Origin: Peribacillus frigoritolerans
Lineage (GTDB): Bacteria; Bacillota; Bacilli; Bacillales; DSM-1321
Length of the DNA stretch: 64,000 bases
Assembly: GCA_030562215.1 (NCBI GenBank)
Contig: JAUPFL010000001.1
Coordinates: forward strand, 2,778,501 to 2,842,500
Reading direction: 5' to 3'
Shown: piece by piece, positions 52,972-63,651 of the stretch
How the letters are laid out: the number at the start of each line of letters is the position of its first letter
How positions within the stretch are numbered: the first letter of the stretch is position 1
Notes under the pieces: model-generated
What the model was told of the DNA's origin: nothing
The model's input: only the letters and a program-made list of their open reading frames with translations
Database searches by the model: none
Position numbers and translations under genes: made by a program

Positions 52972-54306
52972 TTGGCAAAGTTCACACGTGAAGACATCAC
53001 TCGTTTAGCGAAAGAAGAAAATGTTAAGTACATTCGTTTACAATTTACTGACATTTTAGGGACAATTAAAAACGTTGAAATCCCAGTCAGTCAATTAGAA
53101 AAAGCACTTGATAATAAAATGATGTTTGACGGATCTTCCATTGAAGGCTTCGTTCGTATCGAAGAGTCTGATATGTACCTATATCCTGATTTAAACACAT
53201 GGGTTATCTTCCCTTGGACTTCTGAAAAAGGTAAAGTCGCACGTCTAATCTGTGATATTTACAATACGGATGGAACACCTTTTGATGGAGATCCACGTGC
53301 AAACCTAAAACGTGTTCTTGCGGAAGCAAGAGAAATGGGCTTCACGGATTTCAATCTTGGACCTGAGCCTGAATTCTTCCTATTCAAACTGGATGCAGCA
53401 GGCGAGCCGACTCTAGAATTGAACGATAAAGGCGGATACTTTGACCTTGCACCTACTGACCTAGGAGAAAACTGCCGTCGTGATATCGTTCTTGAACTTG
53501 AAGAAATGGGATTTGAAATCGAAGCATCCCACCATGAAGTAGCTCCAGGACAACATGAAATTGACTTTAAATATGCAGATGCAATTTCAGCTTGTGATAA
53601 CATCCAAACATTTAAATTGGTTGTTAAAACGATTGCCCGTAAACATGGTTTACACGCAACATTCATGCCAAAACCATTGTTCGGTGTTAACGGATCTGGA
53701 ATGCACTGTAATGTTTCACTATTCAAAGGCAACGAAAACGCGTTTTATGATAAAGAAGGTAAATTGGAATTAAGTAAAACAGCTGAGCAATTTATCGCAG
53801 GTATCATTAAGCATGCTCCAAGCTTCACTGCGGTAACAAACCCAACTGTTAACTCATACAAACGTCTAGTTCCTGGTTACGAAGCTCCTTGCTATGTTGC
53901 ATGGTCTGCTAAAAACCGTAGCCCACTAATCCGTATCCCAGCTTCACGCGGAGTAAGTACTCGCGTAGAGGTACGTAGTGTCGATCCAGCAGCAAACCCA
54001 TACTTGGCGCTTGCAGTTCTACTAAAAGCTGGTCTTGACGGAATCAAGAACGACTTGACTCCTCCAGCTCCAGTTGACCGCAACATCTATGTAATGAATA
54101 AAGAAGAACGTGAAGAAGTAGGTATCGTTGATCTACCAGCTACTTTATATGCTGCATTGGAAACATTAAAATCTGATGAAGTAATCAAAGAAGCATTAGG
54201 TGAACATTTACTTGAGCACTTCATCGAAGCAAAAGAAATCGAGTGGGATATGTTTAGAACTCAAGTTCACCCATGGGAACGCGAACAATATATGTCAATG
54301 TATTAA
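52972..54306 (+). CDS. glnA: Type I glutamine synthetase
   Basis: This 444 aa enzyme makes glutamine from glutamate, ammonia and ATP. Visible are the beta-grasp region [27 protein letters not shown], the ATP/metal site [12 protein letters not shown], the [17 protein letters not shown] flap and [13 protein letters not shown] 52972 follows TTAGGGGGAATAG. Intact; with GlnR it forms the nitrogen feedback loop. Confidence 0.97.
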
Positions 54307-54960: not shown

Positions 54961-55050
54961 CAACTAACAGGTGCTTTACTGCATTACCAGAAGCTAATCA
55001 ACAGCTCCTTTTTCTAATGCAACCAACGGGGTAGTTTAGTTCATTAAGAA
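54961..55050 (+). repeat. Palindromic intergenic repeat, copy 1
   Basis: Left part CAACTAACAGGTGCTTTACT and right part AACCAACGGGGTAGTTTAGTT, with AACAGCTCC-like centre. First of about ten copies confined to 54.9-63.4 kb. Lies 3' of the amine oxidase gene. Confidence 0.75.
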
Positions 55051-55085
55051 ATTTCACAGTCCTAATTTATCTATATTTCCTGTGT

Positions 55086-56558
55086 TTATTTTGGCAAGTC
55101 ATTCACTTCATATGCAACCCGGATTCCGGATTCAATCGCCCCTTGCATCCAAGCGTGGGTAAGCGAAGTGTGTTCACCGGCAAAGTGCACCCTTCCTTCA
55201 GGTTTAGGGATATAAGGATGTAACTCGGTTTCCTGACCCGGTTCAAAAGCAGTGAAAGCTCCAGAAGTATATTCATTATCGACCCAACTTAAGGAAGTTC
55301 CTGATACAAACTCAGAATAGACTTGGTCTCCGAAAATTTCAGCTAAGTTCTTTAAAGCATATTGAATGCGATCTTCATTTGATAGACCGTTCCATATTAA
55401 AGCCTCATCCGCCCATGTATAGCTTGCCAAAACAACAGCAGGTCCCTTTGTACCAATCCCTTGACTTGGGTAATAAGTAAATCGAATCGGAAGGTCAGTT
55501 ATGGATTTACCACCATATTGATGGTGTCTTTCCCAAAACCTGCTTTTAAACTCGATACCGATTTTTGTTGCGCTCATATAGTTCAGTTCACGAATCGCTC
55601 TCCGTTTATAATAGGAAAAAGAATGGTATGGTTCAACTTTCACAAATCGTAACACTGTAAAGGGGATGGTTATGATGGCAAGATCACCAGTTATGGTGGA
55701 ATCCTCTAAGGTGTGCTGATGGGTGGAATGGATGGTTACTCTGTTGTTATGTTGGAGGATTTTCGTCATCCTTTGATTGAACATAAGAACTTCTTTTAAT
55801 TGCGGGAGAAATGCCCGTGGCAGCAGATCCATACCACCGGTTATCTCATAGAAACGATTTGCTCTGAAGGACGACTCTTCTCGCAAGACTTCAATAAATG
55901 ACATCCCCATATATGCTTCTAAGTCAAGGAGTACACCGATCATATCAACCGCGCCATCTGAAAAAGTCGTTCCATATTGATAATGGTAAGAGTTTAAGAA
56001 AGTACCTAGTGAGTAGTTTTTAAATTCTTTTTCTACGAGATGCCAATTTCTCGTAGGGTCTTGTTTAATAAAATCAAGAATTGGCTGTGTAGCTAATTTC
56101 ACCAGATCCTCTGCGCTTTTACCTCTTTCATTTGGGGCAACGGGAAAGTTTAGAATACCAGGAGAACGTTCAAAAATGTTAAGACGTGTTTTGATTCCAT
56201 TGAGATAAAGAATATCCATTGGAGTTCGGTTAATAAACAGGTTTAGGGTTAGCCCGAATTTTTTAATATACTCTAAGGTCAAAAAATGAACATCAGGAAT
56301 ACGCATTGGGCCTGGGTTAAAATAAAGCCCATTACTAAAGGGGGAACGTATGGTAAAGGCACGTCCGCCTACCCTGTTATTTGCTTCAAGTATTGTGATG
56401 TTGTGCCCGGCCTCCTGCAATAGAGAAGCCGCAACCAGTCCTGCCAGTCCTGCGCCAACAATAGTGATATGTTTGGGAACTTGGGACTTTTTAAGACCAT
56501 TTCTAATAATGCTAATCATTTGTTGAGTAGTTAATTGATAATTTATGTTAATGGGCAT
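55086..56558 (-). CDS. Flavin-dependent amine oxidase family protein
   Basis: This 490 aa protein has the FAD dinucleotide fold [17 protein letters not shown] (residues about 31-47), [18 protein letters not shown] and the C-terminal flavin-contact motif [20 protein letters not shown]. It resembles monoamine/L-amino acid oxidases that release ammonia and H2O2 from an amine substrate; the specific amine is unknown. CTGGAGGGAAG precedes the start. No signal peptide. Single-gene unit flanked by repeat copies 1 and 2. Confidence 0.85.
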
Positions 56559-57023
56559 CTCTTCCCTCCAGTGAAATAGATTTATTACATTGTATTCACT
56601 TGTATAGAGGTCTATGTGTTCTTACTATTTTCGGATAAATAAAGTAAAGATAAATTCTACTTTTGTAGCTGGGGTACAAATGAAAATATTAAATAAAGAG
56701 ACCCCTCCATTTCAGTGAGTGATAGGAAAAACCTCCAACACTTACACAGGTATACTTTTTACGTAGAAGTGCCTGAAGGATTTAGCGTTGAAGTTCTGTG
56801 TTTAACAAGTTACTTGGAGATTGATATTAAACTAACAGGCGCTTTACCTCAATAAAAGGGGGCTGCGGGAACCTTTTTCTTACGGAACTAACGGGGCAGG
56901 TTAGTTGTATAAGGAATTGGATTATTACGGTATAATCTTTAGGTTGTTGTCTTCAATACTCAATGTTAGGGTGGATAATTTAATCGTTCGAAATTTACAT
57001 TTAACTTTTAGGAGGACATACCT
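56559..57023. other. Intergenic region with repeat copy 2
   Basis: Divergent leader between the amine oxidase and the broken lipoprotein gene. Apart from repeat copy 2 (56829-56910), no gene or clear promoter was recognised. Confidence 0.5.
56829..56910 (+). repeat. Palindromic intergenic repeat, copy 2 (near-complete)
   Basis: AACTAACAGGCGCTTTACC at the left, a GGGGGCTGCGGGAACC centre, TTTTTCTTACGG, then AACTAACGGGGCAGGTTAGTT at the right. Both ends are small inverted repeats and the whole can fold into one long hairpin. Confidence 0.85.
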
Positions 57024-57594
57024 TTGTTTAATTTTGTCACTGTAGGGCTCCTTGTTATAGGAATCCTTGCTGCTTGTGTCAATGAACTATAAAAATGAAT
57101 TAGTAGATGTAGATACTCCTCAACAAAACGAGGTTCAAGATTCCACCCAACAGAACACAGAGCTTTCTTACGATGCACCAAGGTATCATATGACGGGCGG
57201 TTGGACAAATGGTGAATATTACATAATGATTAATGGTAGCAGCGACTTCGAAGGATCTGCTAAGTAGATACTGCAAAAAATTCCGAAAAAGGGAAAAGAG
57301 AAAGTCATAAAGCATTTACAGTTAACCGAATCAACCGGAAATAAACTAACTGCAAAGCCTCCAGGCGGCGAGGAGAATGTACATTTATGGTAAAATGTGG
57401 AGTGATGTACAACTCCTTTATTTCACAATGCCTTCACGAAATCCTCATGTCCTGAAATCACTCCATTTAACTTTGACCTCACAATCAAGGGGGATGAAAT
57501 CCTGCGAATAAGTGAGCATTCGAAAGATATTTGTATCAAACTGAGGGAGTTGAAGAAGGTATTTATTGATCAGCTAAAGAATAGTATTCGGTAA
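57024..57594 (+). pseudogene. Degraded lipoprotein gene
   Basis: TTG 57024 after TAGGAGGAC gives MFNFVTVGLLVIGILAACV, a lipoprotein signal peptide with lipobox ILAAC. A one-base shift follows near 57080; then frame YKNELVDVDTPQQNEVQDST runs to an in-frame TAG (57265), past which coding-like sequence continues (ILQKIPKKGKEKVIKHLQLT). More shifts lead to a final part reading DEILRISEHSKDICIKLREL up to TAA 57592. A substitution-type stop plus several shifts suggest real decay. A related fragment occurs at 62806-62865. Confidence 0.6.
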
Positions 57595-57639
57595 AGGTTG
57601 ATTTTAAGGGGTAAACAAACTTAATATCAGGAGGGAAAA

Positions 57640-57927
57640 ATGGTTGATTATAGTTATGAGAAACAATATCTGAAAAAACTCAGGACTTTTACTTATATCA
57701 CGATAGCATTAATTTTTTTAATGATATTTATATTCATTTGCATTTTTCTTTTGTATTTTTCTATGTCAAGCATTTTAGACGTTGTGTATTTTACACCAAA
57801 AATAGCAATTTTCTCATTCTTGATTTCTAGTGTATTTTCTGTTTTAGCCATAAAAAATCTCTTTGGTAAGATATTGTTATTATTAAACATATTTCTAATG
57901 CTATTTATGATTTTTTATGGACCATAA
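57640..57927 (+). CDS. Small hypothetical membrane protein
   Basis: This 95 aa protein has a short charged N terminus and three hydrophobic helices (ITIALIFLMIFIFICIFLLY; IAIFSFLISSVFSVLA; LLLLNIFLMLFMIFY). No family recognised. ATCAGGAGGG precedes ATG 57640. It follows the broken lipoprotein gene closely. Confidence 0.65.
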   Translation: MVDYSYEKQYLKKLRTFTYITIALIFLMIFIFICIFLLYFSMSSILDVVYFTPKIAIFSFLISSVFSVLAIKNLFGKILLLLNIFLMLFMIFYGP

Positions 57928-57956
57928 ATAGATACAAGAAGACTAAATTAGGGTGT

Positions 57957-58012
57957 AAGCTGTCGTTTAGACAGCCTTTACTTATGCAACTATCAGGGCA
58001 GTTTAGTTGCAG
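57957..58012 (+). repeat. Palindromic intergenic repeat, copy 3 (partial)
   Basis: Central hairpin GCTGTC-GTTTA-GACAGC, then ATGCAACTATCAGGGCAGTTTAGTT. The left end is missing or diverged. Confidence 0.65.
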
Positions 58013-58148
58013 AAAAAATGCTAAAATATGTATAGCTAAATTAAACTTTGGGACGTGATTAAAACGGATAAATTTAAAAAAACTTTTCTCCGGTTTTAGT
58101 AACCGGTTAGTTTAAGACAGGGGTGTTCGAGGTGACAGTTATTAATGG

Positions 58149-58545
58149 ATGGAGGCGTTTAATTTAAATAAAATTTTAAAAATGGGTATTTGTACGTCTA
58201 TCGTATTAGTAATTTTACTTGGTGTTACTTTTTTTGAATACATATTTTTAAGATTACTCGGATTACAATATAATTCAATTGGTGCTTTAGTATTTTTCTT
58301 TGTTATGTAGGTATTTCTTGAAATACCTCTCTCGCTCATTACAAATGCGATACCAAAGGCTTTAAAATCCTTCGGTATTATTCAATCAACTAAGGGCTGG
58401 GGGTCTCACTTTTGCGTTAATTGAATTACTCGTTACCTTCTTGGATAATATCTCCATTACTTGGCAAGGTTCACTCATATTTGCATTGATTTCTGTACTT
58501 ATCGGTTTGAAATTAAAGAGAAAGATGATGGCGACCAATGATTGA
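58149..58545 (+). pseudogene. YrvL-family protein, stop codon and frameshift
   Basis: Frames combine into a ~131 aa membrane protein: MEAFNLNKILKMGICTSIVL, FEYIFLRLLGLQYNSIGALV, a TAG at 58308, then VFLEIPLSLITNAIPKALKS and, after removing one G from the run at 58400-58404, GLTFALIELLVTFLDNISIT. The EIPLSLITNAIPKAL block is the YrvL family hallmark. The TAG sits where a Tyr is likely (TAT or TAC). Family function is reported only as regulatory; here the gene looks inactive. Confidence 0.6.
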
Positions 58546-58591
58546 TAGTGAAGAATTCAAGACAATAGAAAATAGATTTAATTCCAAAAAG

Positions 58592-58625
58592 TAAACTATC
58601 GAACGCACGTTAGTTTAACAAGAAT
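58592..58625 (+). repeat. Palindromic intergenic repeat, copy 4 (half)
   Basis: AAACTATCGAACGCACGTTAGTTTAACAAG shows the AACTA...TTAGTT dyad of one end of the element. Confidence 0.5.
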
Positions 58626-58658
58626 GGGGAAACCCTAATTGATTAGGAGTGAGGTTAG

Positions 58659-59009
58659 ATGATTGCCATTGTTATGCAAGTAATTTTAGCAGTTTTTATT
58701 TTAGTCGGAGGATTCATAAAACTTTTACGTATCCCGTTTCAGGTTGAACATTGGCAGCATTATCAATATCCATTATGGTTCATGTCTGTAATTGGATTTA
58801 TTGAACTTATTGGAGCAATAGGAATGATTGGGGGTATCTGGAATAGATACTTGGCTGTTGGATCAGGTGTATTGTTTGTACTTATCATGATAGGAGCCCT
58901 ACATGCTCATATTTTTCGAGCGCATCAATCTATTGTAATGATTGTTCCTGCAATGATCTGTTTAATATTATCTATCATGGTTATTATCAAGAACTTAACG
59001 TTCGCATAA
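58659..59009 (+). CDS. DoxX-family membrane protein
   Basis: This 116 aa protein has four hydrophobic helices. ILVGGFIKLLRIP, FIELIGAIGMIGGIW and LIMIGALHAHIFRAH match the DoxX/DoxX-like pattern. Role uncertain; relatives are linked to redox or thiol stress. TTAGGAGTGAGG precedes ATG 58659. Single-gene unit between repeat copies 4 and 5. Confidence 0.8.
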   Translation: MIAIVMQVILAVFILVGGFIKLLRIPFQVEHWQHYQYPLWFMSVIGFIELIGAIGMIGGIWNRYLAVGSGVLFVLIMIGALHAHIFRAHQSIVMIVPAMICLILSIMVIIKNLTFA

Positions 59010-59114
59010 ATTTGTTCACAATTTTGGAGAGTTTAATAAAACTTATAATTTTACTTCTCTATTTATGTTAATCCCCTACTGAATCAGTCTTTGAGGGACT
59101 TTGCGAATGTTCTT

Positions 59115-59166
59115 GAACTAACGGGTGCGTTAGCTGAAAATCAGAGCTGTCTTTAAGGCGAGAGAG
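59115..59166 (+). repeat. Palindromic intergenic repeat, copy 5 (left half)
   Basis: GAACTAACGGGTGCGTTAGC then GAAAATCAGAGCTGTCTTTAAGG. The right end is replaced by the SDR ribosome site (GAGAGGAGC). Confidence 0.75.
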
Positions 59167-59178
59167 GAGCTTCAATAA

Positions 59179-59913
59179 GTGCTTAAAAATAGAAAAGTAA
59201 TCGTAACAGGCGCGGCTTCTGGAATAGGTAAAGAAATTGTCAAACAATGCTTATATGAGGGGCTTCAGTAATTGCATGCGATATTAATGAACATTCCTTA
59301 TATGATTTAAAACGGTCAATGGATGATCGCTATGTTCTACATACATATCAGTTAGATGTAAGTAACCATGAAGAGGTCATTAAATTTTTTGTATATGTTG
59401 AAGCAGAACAAGCTGATGTAGATGGTTTAGTTAATAATGCGGGGATTTATTTGGCGAAAAATATATTGGATTATCAAGTAGATGAAATTGATAAAGTCCT
59501 AGATATAAATGTTAAGGGGTATATTTATCTCTCACAAATGTTCGGTAAAAAATTGTTCCAAAGCCAACGTAAAGGGAGTTATCGTTAATATGTCTTCAGT
59601 GTCAGGAATGGAGGGCAGTTCAGATGCAATTTATGGGTTATCAAAGGCTGCCATATTAGGTTTAACTAAAAGCTGCGCAATGAATTTCTCACCATATATC
59701 CGAGTTAATGCTGTTGCTCCTACGATGGTTAATACTCCCATGATGGGTACGATACCTGATTGGAGAAAAGAGGAGTATTTAAGTCACCAACTCATCAATA
59801 CGCCTGTCCTGCCTGAAGATGTGGCTGATACTGTTGTCTTCTTATTATCAGATAGAGCCAAGCATTATACAGGCGCAACATTCGATATTAATAATGGAGG
59901 ATATCTAAGATAG
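59179..59913 (+). pseudogene. Short-chain dehydrogenase/reductase, frameshifted
   Basis: Repaired reading gives a ~245 aa SDR: VIVTGAASGIGKEIVKQCLY, NNAGIYLAKNILDY, catalytic Ser in MSSVSG and YGLSKAA with Tyr-x-x-x-Lys changed to YGLSK, RVNAVAPTMVNTPM, and a C-terminal GATFDINNGG. GTG 59179 follows GAGAGGAGC. One G is missing at 59259-59262, and two bases (probably A) between about 59562 and 59572. Substrate unknown. Confidence 0.8.
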
Positions 59914-59928
59914 TTCTGCTTCTTGTTA

Positions 59929-60014
59929 AACAATAGGTACGTTTGTTTAGATAGGGGTTGCTGAGGCAATCCTTTTTCTTATGGCACTAACGGGACAGAT
60001 TAGTTGATTAAGCA
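59929..60014 (+). repeat. Palindromic intergenic repeat, copy 6
   Basis: AACAATAGGTACGTTTGTTTAG, centre GGGGTTGCTGAGGCAATCC, TTTTTCTTATGGCACTAACGG then GACAGATTAGTTGATTAAGC. Confidence 0.75.
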
Positions 60015-60326
60015 TTAGGGAGAGTTAATAGGGTGAAATTAAAACTTTTAAGGGGAAGACAGTGAGAAACTACTTAGAGTAACAACCATACTACAATAAA
60101 TCGTAGAGTAAGAAGTCTAGTGGCGTTTTCTAGTAATACTCGGAAGTATAAGCGCTTTCTGTTATAATAACAATGGGTTGGCATGTGTGGCTGTCATAGT
60201 ATCTGGCGTAGGCGGGGCCAATACCGGAAGAGGACTTAGTGAAAATATCCTTTTTATCTGAATAAAATCTTACATAAACTATAAAAGACGATAACCCCTT
60301 GGCACTCAAGGGGGTTATTTTTCTGG
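60015..60326. other. Gap between SDR and secreted-protein gene
   Basis: A terminator-like hairpin (AACCCCTTGG, CACT, CAAGGGGGTT) lies at 60295-60318 and serves the leftward secreted-protein gene. A short open frame 60121-60261 (FLVILGSISAFCYNNNGLAC) has no start or ribosome site and is not called. No other feature. Confidence 0.5.
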
Positions 60327-60827
60327 TTATTCAGCAGTGAATGTAAATGTTTCTTTTAAAGGTCTGCCTTCCATTCCCTTTTGAGTCCAAATAATTTCCA
60401 CTTCGAATTCCGTAGCTTTTTCAGCCAAAAGGAAATTGCTAAATCGATAAGGATACCCATCATTCAATTGTTTTGCTAAAGCAATCGCCTGTTCATCAGT
60501 ATCTAGTTTTCTACAAGGATGATCAGGAGGACAACCAAAAAGTGCAAACTTCGTCGTAGAATTAGGTTCATTTCTATACATGTAAATTTCCGCAGATAAT
60601 ACATCCTTACCAATATTATCAACCTCTAAAGAGTAAGTATGATATTCTCCCTTTTTAGATTCTGCTAACACCATACCTTTTTCAGCTTGGCCTACTTGAA
60701 CCGACCATTGTTTCGATGTTTGTTTGGTTGGCAATTCACCAAAGGTTAAAGCTTTTGCCTCTAGAGTTGGTGCGACTATGTTCAAAAGAAATAATGTGCA
60801 TATAGCAAGTATCGTTTTCTTAACCAT
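60327..60827 (-). CDS. Secreted hypothetical protein
   Basis: This 166 aa protein has a Sec signal peptide (MVKKTILAICTLFLLNIVAP, cleavage probably after LEAKA). The mature part is beta-rich with a Cys pair in FGCPPDHPCRKL. No family recognised. AAGGAGGTAG precedes the start. Leftward, between repeat copies 6 and 7. Confidence 0.7.
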   Translation of the reverse strand: MVKKTILAICTLFLLNIVAPTLEAKALTFGELPTKQTSKQWSVQVGQAEKGMVLAESKKGEYHTYSLEVDNIGKDVLSAEIYMYRNEPNSTTKFALFGCPPDHPCRKLDTDEQAIALAKQLNDGYPYRFSNFLLAEKATEFEVEIIWTQKGMEGRPLKETFTFTAE

Positions 60828-60885
60828 GACTACCTCCTTGTTTTAGTTACAGTTACTTTGCCCAAAATGGAATGGACTATGTTTT

Positions 60886-60960
60886 GAACTAAGAGGTGCT
60901 TTATTTAATAAGGAAGGTTGCTGCGGCAACCTTGTTTCTTAACGGAACTAAAGGGGCAGC
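60886..60960 (+). repeat. Palindromic intergenic repeat, copy 7 (best central hairpin)
   Basis: GAACTAAGAGGTGCTTTATT, TAAGGAAGGTTGC-TGCG-GCAACCTTGTTTCTTA, then CGGAACTAAAGGGGCAGC. The right GTTAGTT end is lost. Confidence 0.85.
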
Positions 60961-61047
60961 ATTCCTGTAATGAATGAAAATGAGTTTTGAGCACATCTTT
61001 CTTATTAAATTAAACAAAACCAGCTAAGTTTGTGATTTAATACACTT

Positions 61048-61128
61048 AAACTAACGGGTGCTTTAGCTGAAGATTGGATCTGTCTTTAAGGCAGCTTTCC
61101 TTATGGAACTAAAGGGGAAGGTTAGTTT
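61048..61128 (+). repeat. Palindromic intergenic repeat, copy 8 (complete)
   Basis: AAACTAACGGGTGCTTTAGC, centre CTGTCTTTAAGGCAG, CTTTCCTTATGG, then AACTAAAGGGGAAGGTTAGTT. Copies 7 and 8 are adjacent, about 90 bp apart. Confidence 0.85.
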
Positions 61129-61261
61129 CAAATATTTAAAGTTAACGATACTTCACCTCTAAGATGTATTCGTCTCGATTTGCTTTCTCAATATTGTTCT
61201 GTTAGGTGCAATGGTTCATCAACTTAAACCATTAAACTGATTACTGGAGGTATTTTACTAA

Positions 61262-61528
61262 ATGAATAAACAGGACCAACTAAATATTATCAAAGAGGAT
61301 TTTATTAATTGTCAAAAAGTACTATTGGCAATTGGTGATGAAACACGTCAATCGATCCTTTCTCGACCTGCTGTGTCCCATCATCTTAAGGTTTTACGAG
61401 ATGCCGGTGTTATTTTAATGCGTAAAGAAGGGACAAAAAACTTTTATTATATTAATGTACGTACAGAATTAGGTTTATTAAGAACGCTTGTGTTGGATAT
61501 TGATAAGTTCATGCAGAACTTTTATTGA
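61262..61528 (+). CDS. ArsR-family regulator with internal deletion in the HTH region
   Basis: This 88 aa protein shows the ArsR start (LLAIGDETRQSIL) joined directly to the recognition helix SRPAVSHHLKVLRDAGVIL and wing (RKEGTKNFYYI). Family members have roughly 25-30 residues between these two blocks (rest of helix 2-3, typically containing RVGEITEKTHL), so the gene seems to carry an in-frame deletion near 61355. A complete protein would control the adjacent oxidoreductase. CTGGAGGT precedes ATG 61262. Confidence 0.7.
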   Translation: MNKQDQLNIIKEDFINCQKVLLAIGDETRQSILSRPAVSHHLKVLRDAGVILMRKEGTKNFYYINVRTELGLLRTLVLDIDKFMQNFY

Positions 61529-61568
61529 AAAGATGGAATATAAACACACATTAGTTGGAGGTATAGGT

Positions 61569-62567
61569 ATGAGAGCAATGGTTATTGATAGGTATGGGAA
61601 AGTTCCAATGCATTTGGTAGAAATACCCACACCTGAAATTGGTGAATATGAGGTACTCGCAGAAATTCATGCAGCTAGTATTAATCCTGTTGATTTTAAG
61701 ATACGCGATGGGAAAGTGAAATTGTTAGTTAAATATAAAATGCCTCTTATCTTAGGAAATGACTTTTCTGGTGTCATTGCAAGGGTTGGCGCAAAAGTGA
61801 CTCGTTTTAAAGTTGGTGACGAAATATATGCACGTCCACGTAAGAGTAAAATCGGTACTTTTGCTGAATATATCGCTATTCATGAAGATGACATCGCCTT
61901 AAAACCTAAAAATTTAAGCTTTGAAGAAGCGGCATCGATCCCACTGGTTGGGTTAACCTCCTATCAAGCCCTAACTGACATTTTGCAATTACAAAAGGGA
62001 CAAAAGATTTTAATTCAAGCTGGGGCTGGTGGTGTCGGTACCTTTGCTATTCAACTGGCCAAATTAATGGGTGCCACTGTTGCAACGACTGCCAGTGAAG
62101 CTGGTGCGAATTTAGTAAAATCTCTTGGTGCAGATGAAATTATCAATTACAAGACAGAAAAATTTGAAGAGATACTGAAAAACTATGATGCCGTATTTGA
62201 TACACTTGGGGGTGAGATACTCGAAAAATCATTCGAAGTGATAAAAAACGGAGGGAAAATTGTTTCCGTTTCGGGATTACCGAATGCTCGTTTTGGTAAA
62301 GAATATGGTTCCGGATTTTTTAAAACGTTGTTGTTTTCTGCAGCAAGTTATAAACTTACTGTACTTGAAAAAAAGCATAATGTTCAATATACGTTTTTGT
62401 TTATGAAGCCGAGTGGAGAGCAATTACGTATAATTGCAAACTTTATTGAGACTCGTAAAATTACACCTATAATTGATAGAGTTTTTCCTTTTGAAGATGC
62501 TCAAGAAGCGATGGAATATGCGGAGTCAGGAAGGGCGAAAGGGAAAATAATATTAAAAATCAGGTAG
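61569..62567 (+). CDS. NADP-dependent zinc-free alcohol dehydrogenase/quinone reductase-type oxidoreductase
   Basis: This 332 aa MDR-superfamily protein has ASINPVDFKIRDG, the PLILGNDFSGVI region, IPLVGLTSYQAL and the NADPH fold ILIQAGAGGVGTFAIQLAK. It lacks zinc-ligand cysteines, as expected for quinone-oxidoreductase-like members. ATG 61569 follows TTGGAGGTATAGG. It starts 40 bp after the ArsR gene and is probably its target. Intact. Confidence 0.87.
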   Translation: MRAMVIDRYGKVPMHLVEIPTPEIGEYEVLAEIHAASINPVDFKIRDGKVKLLVKYKMPLILGNDFSGVIARVGAKVTRFKVGDEIYARPRKSKIGTFAEYIAIHEDDIALKPKNLSFEEAASIPLVGLTSYQALTDILQLQKGQKILIQAGAGGVGTFAIQLAKLMGATVATTASEAGANLVKSLGADEIINYKTEKFEEILKNYDAVFDTLGGEILEKSFEVIKNGGKIVSVSGLPNARFGKEYGSGFFKTLLFSAASYKLTVLEKKHNVQYTFLFMKPSGEQLRIIANFIETRKITPIIDRVFPFEDAQEAMEYAESGRAKGKIILKIR

Positions 62568-62689
62568 TTGTCAAACGAAGTAAAAAATATTTCCCAACTT
62601 TAATCAGTATGGAGTCTTTTGTATGGATGTTAAATAATAGGGTAAAGGTAACTTTTCAAAATCTTTATTCTAAAGCTACAAATGATCTT

Positions 62690-62710
62690 CAACGAACAGG
62701 CGCTTTAAAG
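62690..62710 (+). repeat. Palindromic intergenic repeat, copy 9 (left half)
   Basis: CAACGAACAGGCGCTTTAAAG resembles the left end of the element. Confidence 0.5.
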
Positions 62711-62718
62711 AAGTAACC

Positions 62719-62760
62719 AAAGCCTAAATTCACACTTATAACACCGGGAATTTAGGCTTT
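62719..62760 (+). terminator. Terminator after the oxidoreductase
   Basis: AAAGCCTAAATTC and GAATTTAGGCTTT form a 13 bp stem around a 16 nt loop. Confidence 0.8.
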
Positions 62761-62805
62761 ATGTATTGTGGCTTCATTAACTTTGTAAATCCTTTCCTGA
62801 CGCTA

Positions 62806-62865
62806 CCCCTTAATGAACTCCCTCAGTTTAATAGATAATGCTCACGAATACTCATAGAGGATAAA
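62806..62865 (-). pseudogene. Short fragment related to the 57.5 kb lipoprotein gene
   Basis: Leftward strand reads CGTGAGCATTATCTATT then AAACTGAGGGAGTTCATTA, closely matching the 57.5 kb segment that encodes SEHSKDICIKLRELK, with small gaps. Only about 50-60 bp are similar. Confidence 0.45.
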
Positions 62866-62920
62866 ACTAAAATGAAATACGAACCTATATTATTATTTAT
62901 TTGAAGTAAAGGAGGATAAG

Positions 62921-63390
62921 ATGAATACATATTGTAAGAGTGCATTGAATCAAATTAAAGTAGCTGTAACGACAATTATTGAGATGATAGAAAAATTAGA
63001 AGAAAACGACTTACAAAAAGACCTACACCTAATAAGCATTCCATAGGAGAGCTGTTAGAACACATTGCTATTATTGGTGAAGCTGATTCGCTTATATCGG
63101 ACGGGGCATCCCAAGATATGATGAATAAATTTTATTCAAGTGTTTCATATAAAAGCCTAAATGAGATGAAAGGAGCGTTGATAAAAAATCATCAATTTTT
63201 AGAAGATAAATTTATGAATTTTACAGAAGTCGAACTTCAAGAGAAAATTACTTCTTATTGGGGTGTTACTTACTCACGATATGAATGGTTGTTAGAGATT
63301 GTTGCTCACGTTTATCATCACAGAGGACAATTACACTCTATGCTTGTTCATTGTTATGGGAAAGACCCAAAAGTTCCATTATTTGAATAG
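62921..63390 (+). pseudogene. DinB/YfiT-like metal-dependent protein, one frameshift
   Basis: Adding one A in 63015-63019 gives a continuous ~157 aa DinB-superfamily four-helix protein: QKRPTPNKHSIGELLEHIAI (first His of the triad) and EIVAHVYHHRGQLHSMLVH (the later HxxxHRGQ). Family members bind Ni/Zn and some are thiol transferases; role here unknown. AAGGAGGATAAG precedes ATG 62921. Ends KDPKVPLFE. Confidence 0.8.
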
Positions 63391-63400
63391 AATTTACTAA

Positions 63401-63433
63401 TCAACTAACGGGTGGTTTAGTTTATTAAGGAAG
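63401..63433 (+). repeat. Palindromic intergenic repeat, copy 10 (left half)
   Basis: CAACTAACGGGTGGTTTAGT followed by TTATTAAGGAAG. Confidence 0.7.
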
Positions 63434-63485
63434 ACAAAAAAGATCAGCGTTTTTATAAAAGAATAATCCAATTTAATAGTAGTAT

Positions 63486-63523
63486 AAGGGCATGTTTTGA
63501 TAATCTTTTTCAAACATGCCCTT
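63486..63523 (+). terminator. Terminator-like hairpin after DinB gene
   Basis: AAGGGCATGTTTTGA pairs with TCAAACATGCCCTT, followed by TCTATTT. Confidence 0.75.
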
Positions 63524-63651
63524 TCTATTTATTTATTTATTAAAGTTTTTTGTTTAGGTACTCTAAATAATCCTAGTGCTTTTCTAGTTCCATTAGATTA
63601 AGATGGATTAGTTAGTATTTACTATATGAGAGAAAATGGGGAAAAATTGTT

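Follow-up and report, generated by a model that had tools for sequence, protein, structure and literature searches.

Putative gene-cassette arrays with two recombination sites per repeat in Peribacillus frigoritolerans and related Bacillales

Integrons are the textbook route for the capture and shuffling of single genes. Chromosomal integron arrays are reported to follow replication, which is attributed to the folding of attC sites on single strands (PMC11023631). IntegronFinder 2.0 lists a single complete integron from Firmicutes, that of Limnochorda pilosa, and a few clusters of attC sites lacking integron-integrases (CALIN; PMC9024848). The dif (pdif) modules of Acinetobacter alternate in orientation (C and D modules) and are assumed to depend on the host XerC/D (PMC13141974). 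Here we describe a 64,000-nucleotide stretch of the Peribacillus frigoritolerans chromosome assembly GCA_030562215.1 (contig JAUPFL010000001.1, positions 2,778,501 to 2,842,500; the window), whose last ~9 kb consist of gene blocks separated by copies of a structured repeat. Very likely a gene-cassette array driven by site-specific recombination begins in these 9 kb. This reading is built on the sites, their polarity, the positions of the breaks, the mobility of the blocks and the linkage to a recombinase, all of which are observed from sequence.

A genus-wide repeat with two sites and a hairpin

A repeat profile, seeded with two copies from the window and then iterated, returned seven copies in the window, all on the + strand and from position 54,961 on, and single or degenerate sites at 58594, ~62690 and 63403 raise the total to about ten. 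The same profile found no copy in the first 54 kb. An initial annotation had drawn this picture from the window's letters, with about ten copies in the last 9 kb, none before, and one orientation of the copies among genes of varying orientation; the genes do lie on both strands. The array runs past the window to about G000:C1:2,909,355 (G000 is the window's own genome, C1 and C2 its contigs), with sparse copies beyond. The wider sample comprised 80 stretches of seven Peribacillus genomes plus the window, merged into 34, and these 1,657,719 bases of array-rich DNA hold 653 matches, 311 of them full length. In the window's genome 159 matches lie in 581.5 kb of repeat-bearing stretches (the window's empty 54 kb counted in), against two matches, one of them weak, in 400 kb of control DNA (20 stretches spread genome-wide, two of them chosen to cover integrase genes). 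C1 of G000 has further islands at 60-220 kb, 1.28-1.40 Mb and 2.36 Mb, and C2 carries fewer copies; among 40 scored matches, out of 84 candidates, 37 fall in four C1 regions and 3 on C2. Among named genomes, 20 stretches match a 23-base piece of the repeat; most belong to Peribacillus or to unnamed Bacillus, and one to Paenisporosarcina. The repeat is a genus-wide family clustered in islands; the even spread through the genome that the initial annotation had named as a refutation was not seen.

The full repeat, ~85 bp long, consists of two short near-palindromic sites around a terminator-like hairpin. Site 1 has the consensus cTTaTTgAACTAAC-GGGTGC-GTTAGCTGAAGATC, with a 6-bp spacer in 228 of 257 cases within full repeats, and site 2 the consensus CTTATGGAACTAAC-GGGGCAG-GTTAGTTnAATAAG, with a 7-bp spacer in 253 of 272; both counts come from an inverted-arm scan that is permissive, as 183 of its 1,311 matches lie off the repeat direction of their stretch and 535 outside any repeat. 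The core forms are AACTAAC-GGGTGC-GTTAGCT (type 1) and AACTAAC-GGGGCAG-GTTAGTT (type 2). The arms of a site are alike (AACTAAC/GTTAGTT cores), and in site 2 the likeness spans ~14 bp. As full repeats carry type 1 and then type 2, the gene blocks between them have type 2 at their left end and type 1 at their right. Between the sites lies a hairpin with T behind it. This middle part exists in 292 distinct versions, which have a mean folding energy of -11.95 kcal/mol against -7.50 kcal/mol when shuffled, 90% of them below their own shuffle, and they are of at least two kinds, both hairpins. A pattern scan gave 13 terminator-like sites against 5.9 in shuffles, with + strand hairpins of this type in four of the window's repeats. 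A regular-expression terminator test on the folded middles gave no useful contrast (0.23 against 0.19 in shuffles on the forward strand, 0.02 on the reverse complement), an outcome that is probably due to pairing of the T-run within the fold.

Mobility of gene blocks and the positions of their breaks

The places where shared sequence ends were examined in 328 near-full repeat copies, with bootstrapping over 43 clusters per class. Only 3 pairs of repeats have both flanks in common, while 64 share the upstream flank only and 95 the downstream flank only. Retention, i.e., similarity above background as a fraction of the similarity of the flank, falls in steps. In upstream-only pairs it is 0.78 in the first arm, 0.68 in spacer 1, 0.18 in the second arm, 0.24 in the middle, 0.13 in the third arm, -0.22 in spacer 2 (uninformative) and 0.11 in the last arm. 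In downstream-only pairs the corresponding values are 0.10, 0.23, 0.02, 0.08 (middle), 0.15, 0.27 (spacer 2, uninformative) and 0.86 (last arm), and the bases past the last arm retain 0.69. These steps between arms and spacers place the right end of a block mostly at spacer 1 and its left end mostly at spacer 2. Where the flanks are at least 90% identical, a middle that is itself at least 90% alike is seen in 13 of 40 upstream-only pairs and in 9 of 54 downstream-only pairs, against 8% of random pairs. The moving unit thus appears mostly to be the gene block alone, not gene plus repeat. The unit of repeat and gene suggested in the initial annotation holds in that blocks move, and has to be redrawn in that it is mostly the gene block alone that does so, from between repeats that are each two sites and a hairpin.

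Whole blocks were followed in 342 array alignments of at least 200 bp and at least 80% identity from which intron and insertion sequence (IS) copies had been removed. Of 629 alignment ends without collinear continuation, 198 (31%) have a repeat no more than 25 bp away in both partners, against 1.0% in the null, 173 lie at a repeat in one partner and 258 at no repeat in either. Forty isolated block pairs in 27 families, 80.9-99.8% identical, have repeats at all four ends; 38 of them are between genomes and 2 within one genome (the intron, IS and array filters kept 55 of 72 repeat-bounded blocks from a looser count). Orientation relative to the repeats is kept in 331 of the 342 alignments. An exchange between strains is seen in the P. 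frigoritolerans plasmids NZ_CP084540.1 and NZ_OY970401.1, which are 99.4-99.97% identical over long collinear pieces, and in which 34.8 kb of the former stand at the same place as a 395-bp block of the latter. At the left end of the swap both plasmids read GAGCTAAAGGGGCAGT and diverge directly after GGGGCAG, and at the right end they are unlike up to AACTA(T/A), after which both read CGGGTGCGTTAGCTG, so that the difference stops just before GGGTGC. Blocks of the window also recur elsewhere. The DoxX block (58645-59115) is 97.7% identical to G004:C1 at ~4,862.55-4,863.02 kb, in an array of opposite orientation, and the match runs with a 3-base gap into the left arm of site 1; the SDR (short-chain dehydrogenase/reductase) block (59160-59952) is 97.1% identical to G006:C1:636042-636834; and the block of a 95-amino-acid open reading frame (ORF; 57640-57927, +, without Pfam match) is found again at ~G000:C1:2,874.5 kb (91.7%) and in G006 (88.2%). 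Overall, the same gene blocks turn up beside different neighbours, in different species and on different replicons, and the breaks fall at the sites. The initial annotation had proposed a repeat-mediated cassette system and a comparison of strains; the isolated repeat-bounded pairs, the swap and the breaks at spacers bear the proposal out, and gene gain and loss between genomes does often break at the repeats.

Mobile elements also gather at the repeats. Two group II introns, recognized by Rfam and Pfam, have 8 and 2 full-length copies in the fetched arrays; an IS110-type element, classed as such from its protein by eye, has 7. All 17 of these copies have a piece of the repeat at one edge at least and 11 at both, the repeat being split in its hairpin part, and the inserts sit behind the hairpin. 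Among the introns alone this holds for 10 of 10 copies (7 at both edges), and in all 10 intron and repeat are co-oriented. IS110-family elements are known to target attC sites as well. Group IIC introns are reported to insert behind terminators and attC sites (PMC7923331). As a side observation, about six group II introns, several of them near-identical, occur in 40 kb of array DNA of G006 (L128 and L130, C1:620001-640000 and 660001-680000).

Array orientation, the linked recombinase and a possible mechanism

The repeats of a stretch point in one direction in 32 of 33 repeat-bearing stretches. The exception, at ~2.8 Mb in G048, has two plus copies followed by seven minus copies, and the GC skew flips there from +0.029 to -0.067. 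Repeat orientation equals the sign of the repeat-masked GC skew, used here as a proxy for replication direction, in 33 of 33 repeat-bearing stretches (the 34th is without repeats), a set that is partly dependent as some arrays are common by descent; control stretches near the G000 islands have the same skew sign. Of 19 stretches around recombinase genes in other genera and in diverged genomes of the genus, 15 have matches, 5 of these a single one; in all 15 the matches run in one direction and fit the unmasked GC skew. Between repeats, 556 ORFs of at least 70 amino acids run along the repeat direction and 167 against it. Exactly one such ORF is found in 307 of 524 intervals of 150-4000 bp, the median interval being 799 bp.

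Phage-integrase matches near arrays led to a 279-amino-acid protein on the P. simplex plasmid NZ_CP011009.1 (G006:C2) and elsewhere. It scores 203 bits with XerD, 201 with archaeal XerA and 200 with XerC, each under the model's own cut-off, and 95 bits with the integron integrase model TIGR02249, whose cut-off is 265. It carries SAM-like N-terminal domains (PF13495/PF02899) and the catalytic domain PF00589. Residues R138, K162, H228, R231, H254 and Y263, which we take to be the catalytic RKHRHY set of a tyrosine recombinase, are invariant in 14 aligned sequences. The predicted model has a mean predicted local distance difference test score (pLDDT) of 80, with values below 50 in nearly all of the last 26 residues, and in a sequence search of structure chains XerD and XerA-type proteins rank first. 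By these scores, domains and residues and by its short length the protein is a predicted Xer-like tyrosine recombinase of the simple class, with the features by which that class is recognized. A further candidate, a 278-amino-acid match at G013:C2:811425, was dropped, as it lies in a 20-kb stretch without repeats and is 25% identical to the recombinase.

A single site lies just past the recombinase stop codon in 12 of 12 close copies, and by eye the DNA beyond it differs in each locus (matched pieces at least 90% identical; several of the genes are broken, L106 and L107 being one gene in two pieces, and the recombinase of L090 is 95% identical over residues 1-176 and diverges after them). Together with its flanks the gene forms a block between repeats, and this block is found at different places. 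CATTCCTGTAATGAATGAAAATGAG, behind the spacer of the window's repeat at 60,886, also stands, with one difference, behind the GGGGCAG spacer of the recombinase's single site in G264 (stretch L172), which is another genus of the same family. At E 1e-40 the recombinase, whole, partial or diverged, is present in 19 of 36 genomes of the genus, and at E 1e-60, with identities down to ~40%, in 79 of 397 genomes of the order and 41 of 135 genera. Named plasmids with a match include those of Cytobacillus, Sporosarcina, Niallia, Metabacillus, Alkalihalophilus and Mesobacillus. The cassette system spans the genus and extends to other genera of the order. The recombinase is co-oriented with the array in the closer clade (except for one of two copies in G353) and mostly opposite to it in the distant clade. 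The associated recombinase for which the initial annotation had advised to look was thus found in related genomes, and none intact in the window's own.

It is likely that this Xer-like enzyme pairs two sites and swaps strands within the spacer, which would result in excision, insertion or exchange of a block. It would act on double-stranded single sites, cutting at the spacer edges, and the asymmetry of the spacer would set the orientation of every insertion. A double crossover at type 2 on the left and type 1 on the right would swap the gene block while the flanking hairpins stay in place. Transcription of each block probably stops at the hairpin between the sites, which would thereby insulate blocks from each other. 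Without an intact recombinase found in the window's genome, movement there would need an enzyme from elsewhere, and the array of this genome looks stranded. Arrays may in general outlive the enzyme, or use another.

There are several points that weigh against a recombinase-driven cassette array. Hairpins kept in 13 of 40 close upstream-only pairs imply that gene plus hairpin moves too, and 258 of 629 non-collinear ends are at no repeat in either partner. The strain-level exchange is a single event (n=1), a small number. Past the left arm of site 1 in the DoxX comparison, the window continues with GGGTGC and the hairpin and G004 with GGGGCAG and other DNA, so that the same block end is joined to type 1 here and to type 2 there and the types are not strictly exclusive; the left match of this block starts ~20 bp inside a degenerate site. 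The SDR block breaks on the right a few bases beyond site 1, in the hairpin part, and on the left at the cut edge of a half repeat rather than at a full site. The window's genome gave neither a recombinase relative at E 1e-40 nor an intact copy, and among 10 genomes that have at least 20 repeats in the matches listed, five are without a relative at this threshold. No covariation was found between the two sites, i.e., for the attC-type box pairs 1L-1R (outer) and 2L-2R (inner). NZ_CP084540.1 has a 27.7-kb insertion with 13 plus copies amid minus copies, which breaks the replichore rule since its own skew is plus (+0.024) and that of its neighbours minus (-0.109 and -0.031). Finally, the activity of the recombinase is inferred from sequence. 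The insertion itself, at ~86.9-114.6 kb of the plasmid, has ends that are not at repeats; its annotation suggests a Tn554-like element, and transposons may carry pieces of arrays about.

Four other explanations were considered. One is a genuine cassette system for which the housekeeping XerC/XerD pair supplies the recombinase, as proposed for the Acinetobacter dif modules, and it is unlikely: strong XerC/D-like matches exist in 6 of 6 genomes searched, including G000 and G013 where the dedicated recombinase was not found, but the 279-amino-acid recombinase lies inside arrays with a site directly behind it, and the two arms of a site are alike and do not resemble the B. subtilis dif sequence. 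A true integron, with repeats that are attC sites folded as single strands, an attC for each cassette and an IntI-type integrase, is quite unlikely. The repeat consensus does fold into one long hairpin, the layout has the four boxes 1L-2L...2R-1R, and the cores AACTAAC/GTTAGTT fit, by eye, 6 of 7 positions of the attC core consensus RYYYAAC/GTTRRRY. Also the hairpins kept in 13 of 40 close pairs are what an integron predicts, and the tracking of GC skew resembles the replication rule reported for chromosomal integrons (PMC11023631). On the other hand the enzyme is far from the integron model (95 bits under a cut-off of 265, against 203 with XerD and 201 with archaeal XerA), the middle seldom travels with the gene before it (0.24 retained, and 0.08 with the downstream gene), crossovers fall at both sites and not at one point in the last box, and the box pairs are without covariation.

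Homologous recombination between dispersed repeats, with the recombinase as a passenger, could shuffle genes as the repeats are similar enough to recombine, and arrays do persist in genomes where no recombinase was found. It is nevertheless very unlikely, because breakpoints step at the spacers and are not spread over 85 bp, the strain-level swap breaks at two different spacers and not across the hairpin, and blocks are also joined by single sites that have no hairpin. Least probable by far is a mobile repeat, i.e., a miniature inverted-repeat transposable element (MITE) or terminator element that inserts into the intergenic gaps of accessory islands. Such an element could leave hundreds of intergenic copies clustered in islands, but a single orientation per array is unexpected for an independent inserter, and it was rejected on the pairs that share flanks: with only 3 pairs common on both sides (64 upstream only, 95 downstream only), genes change around the repeat and not the repeat around genes. 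The independent repeat family that the initial annotation had kept as its alternative can be given up on these grounds.

The array in the window and its relation to known systems

Within the window the array opens ~650 bp past glnA with repeat copy 1 (54961-55043, + as are all repeats and sites that follow), a full copy with site 1 AACTAAC-AGGTGC, the hairpin and site 2 AACCAAC-GGGGTAG-TTTAGTT. It is followed by a flavin amine oxidase gene block that runs opposite to the repeats (55086-56558, -, PF01593) and by the full copy 2 (56829-56910), whose site 2 at 56886 is a perfect AACTAAC-GGGGCAG-GTTAGTT. A dispersed ~205-bp element (57354-57558, no strand assigned) with 7 other matches in the fetched arrays at 77-94% identity precedes the block of the 95-amino-acid ORF, behind which copy 3 (57955-58012) has only the hairpin and site 2, i.e., the 3' part. 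The DoxX-like gene block (58659-59009, +, PF13564) stands between the degenerate single site at 58594-58615 (AACTATC, an 8-bp spacer, GTTAGTT) and copy 4 (59115-59159), a 5' half with the site 1 AACTAAC-GGGTGC-GTTAGCT. The next block holds the C-terminal part of an SDR dehydrogenase (59509-59913, +, PF13561), the frame of which is broken upstream, and ends at copy 5 (59930-60007), a full copy with a degenerate site 1 and a terminator-like hairpin at 59953-59974. A 166-amino-acid ORF without Pfam match (60327-60827, -) is followed by copy 6 (60886-60962), in which the spacer is followed by CATTCCTGTAATGA..., and by the full copy 7 (61048-61130), the best-scoring copy of the window. One block then carries an 88-amino-acid ORF (61262-61528, +), which the initial annotation read as ArsR, together with a zinc-binding dehydrogenase (61488-62567, +, PF13602 and PF08240). 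Beyond it lie the half site AACGAAC-AGGCGC-TTTAAAG (62690-62710), recognized by its sequence and a copy in a repeat family of the window, a DinB-like gene block (63118-63390, +, PF05163 at 19.8 bits, under the 23-bit cut-off) and the single site AACTAAC-GGGTGG-TTTAGTT (63403-63422). The last is the left edge of a ~150-bp element (63402-63556) that begins at the site; the fetched arrays hold 19 matches to it, and it may be a mini-cassette with a regulatory or terminator role. An Rfam scan of the window gave no match at the gathering score.

Several units may be decayed, as claimed in the initial annotation. With a completeness rating of 87% for this assembly, and with a phage-integrase match at G000:C2:1010651-1011164, perhaps xerD, likewise in two pieces, some frameshifts of this genome may be sequencing errors. 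A separate observation concerns the 3' end of glnA (window 54247-54306), the last 57-60 bp of which recur, mostly some kb downstream of glnA, in many genomes of the genus such as G006, G008, G041 and G048; integrase genes or fragments adjoin glnA in G004, G006, G013 and G023. This end of glnA looks like an island attachment site distinct from the cassette system, and judged by their position the integrases beside it would belong to the integration of islands there.

No account of such arrays was found among the open-licence PMC papers listed (titles and starts of abstracts, preprints excluded). There is about an even chance that they represent a third kind of bacterial cassette system, separate from both integrons and dif modules and found widely in the order, i.e., a natural recombinase-mediated cassette exchange. 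If so, a dedicated Xer-like recombinase would serve two heterospecific sites, genes lying between type 2 and type 1 and terminators between type 1 and type 2, so that genes and terminators would be separately replaceable modules, and array orientation would be held by the replication fork. Integrons are nearly absent from Bacillota, and a separate system of similar scale would explain how accessory islands are built up in soil Bacillales. It would also be a source of many portable genes, with edges that a simple profile can locate. Cassette arrays linked to replication direction would then seem to have evolved more than once, and the reason why they follow the fork could be tested in a second system unrelated to the first. 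For directed gene exchange, too, the two-spacer design may be of use as a tool.

The likeness to recombinase-mediated cassette exchange lies in the two spacer types at the ends of a block, which would permit its exchange. With chromosomal integrons the arrays share their length, their mostly single-gene cassettes, near-palindromic sites with what look like two boxes at each end, a tyrosine recombinase, one orientation of insertion, an array orientation tied to replication, and clusters that persist without the integrase, as in CALIN. They differ in that the recombinase is Xer/XerA-like and 279 amino acids long and not IntI, in that both halves of the repeat act as sites and the hairpin mostly stays behind when a gene moves, and in that the recombinase gene is itself a block. 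The single site behind the recombinase stop codon may play the part of attI, the entry site next to an integron integrase gene. The two group II introns sit directly behind the repeat hairpin much as group IIC introns do at terminators; here they are co-oriented with the repeat, whereas IIC-attC introns lie opposite to the cassettes (PMC7923331). With pdif modules the arrays share genes set between short sites of two arms and a 6-bp spacer, shuffling by crossover within the site, and the importance of spacer identity (PMC13141974). In contrast to the alternating pdif modules the repeats of an array are one-directional (32 of 33 stretches), and each site has two similar arms and a spacer of 6 or 7 bp, blocks number in the tens and a recombinase is linked. 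The system works like an integron or a dif-module system and is a member of neither, as it lacks a defining feature of each.

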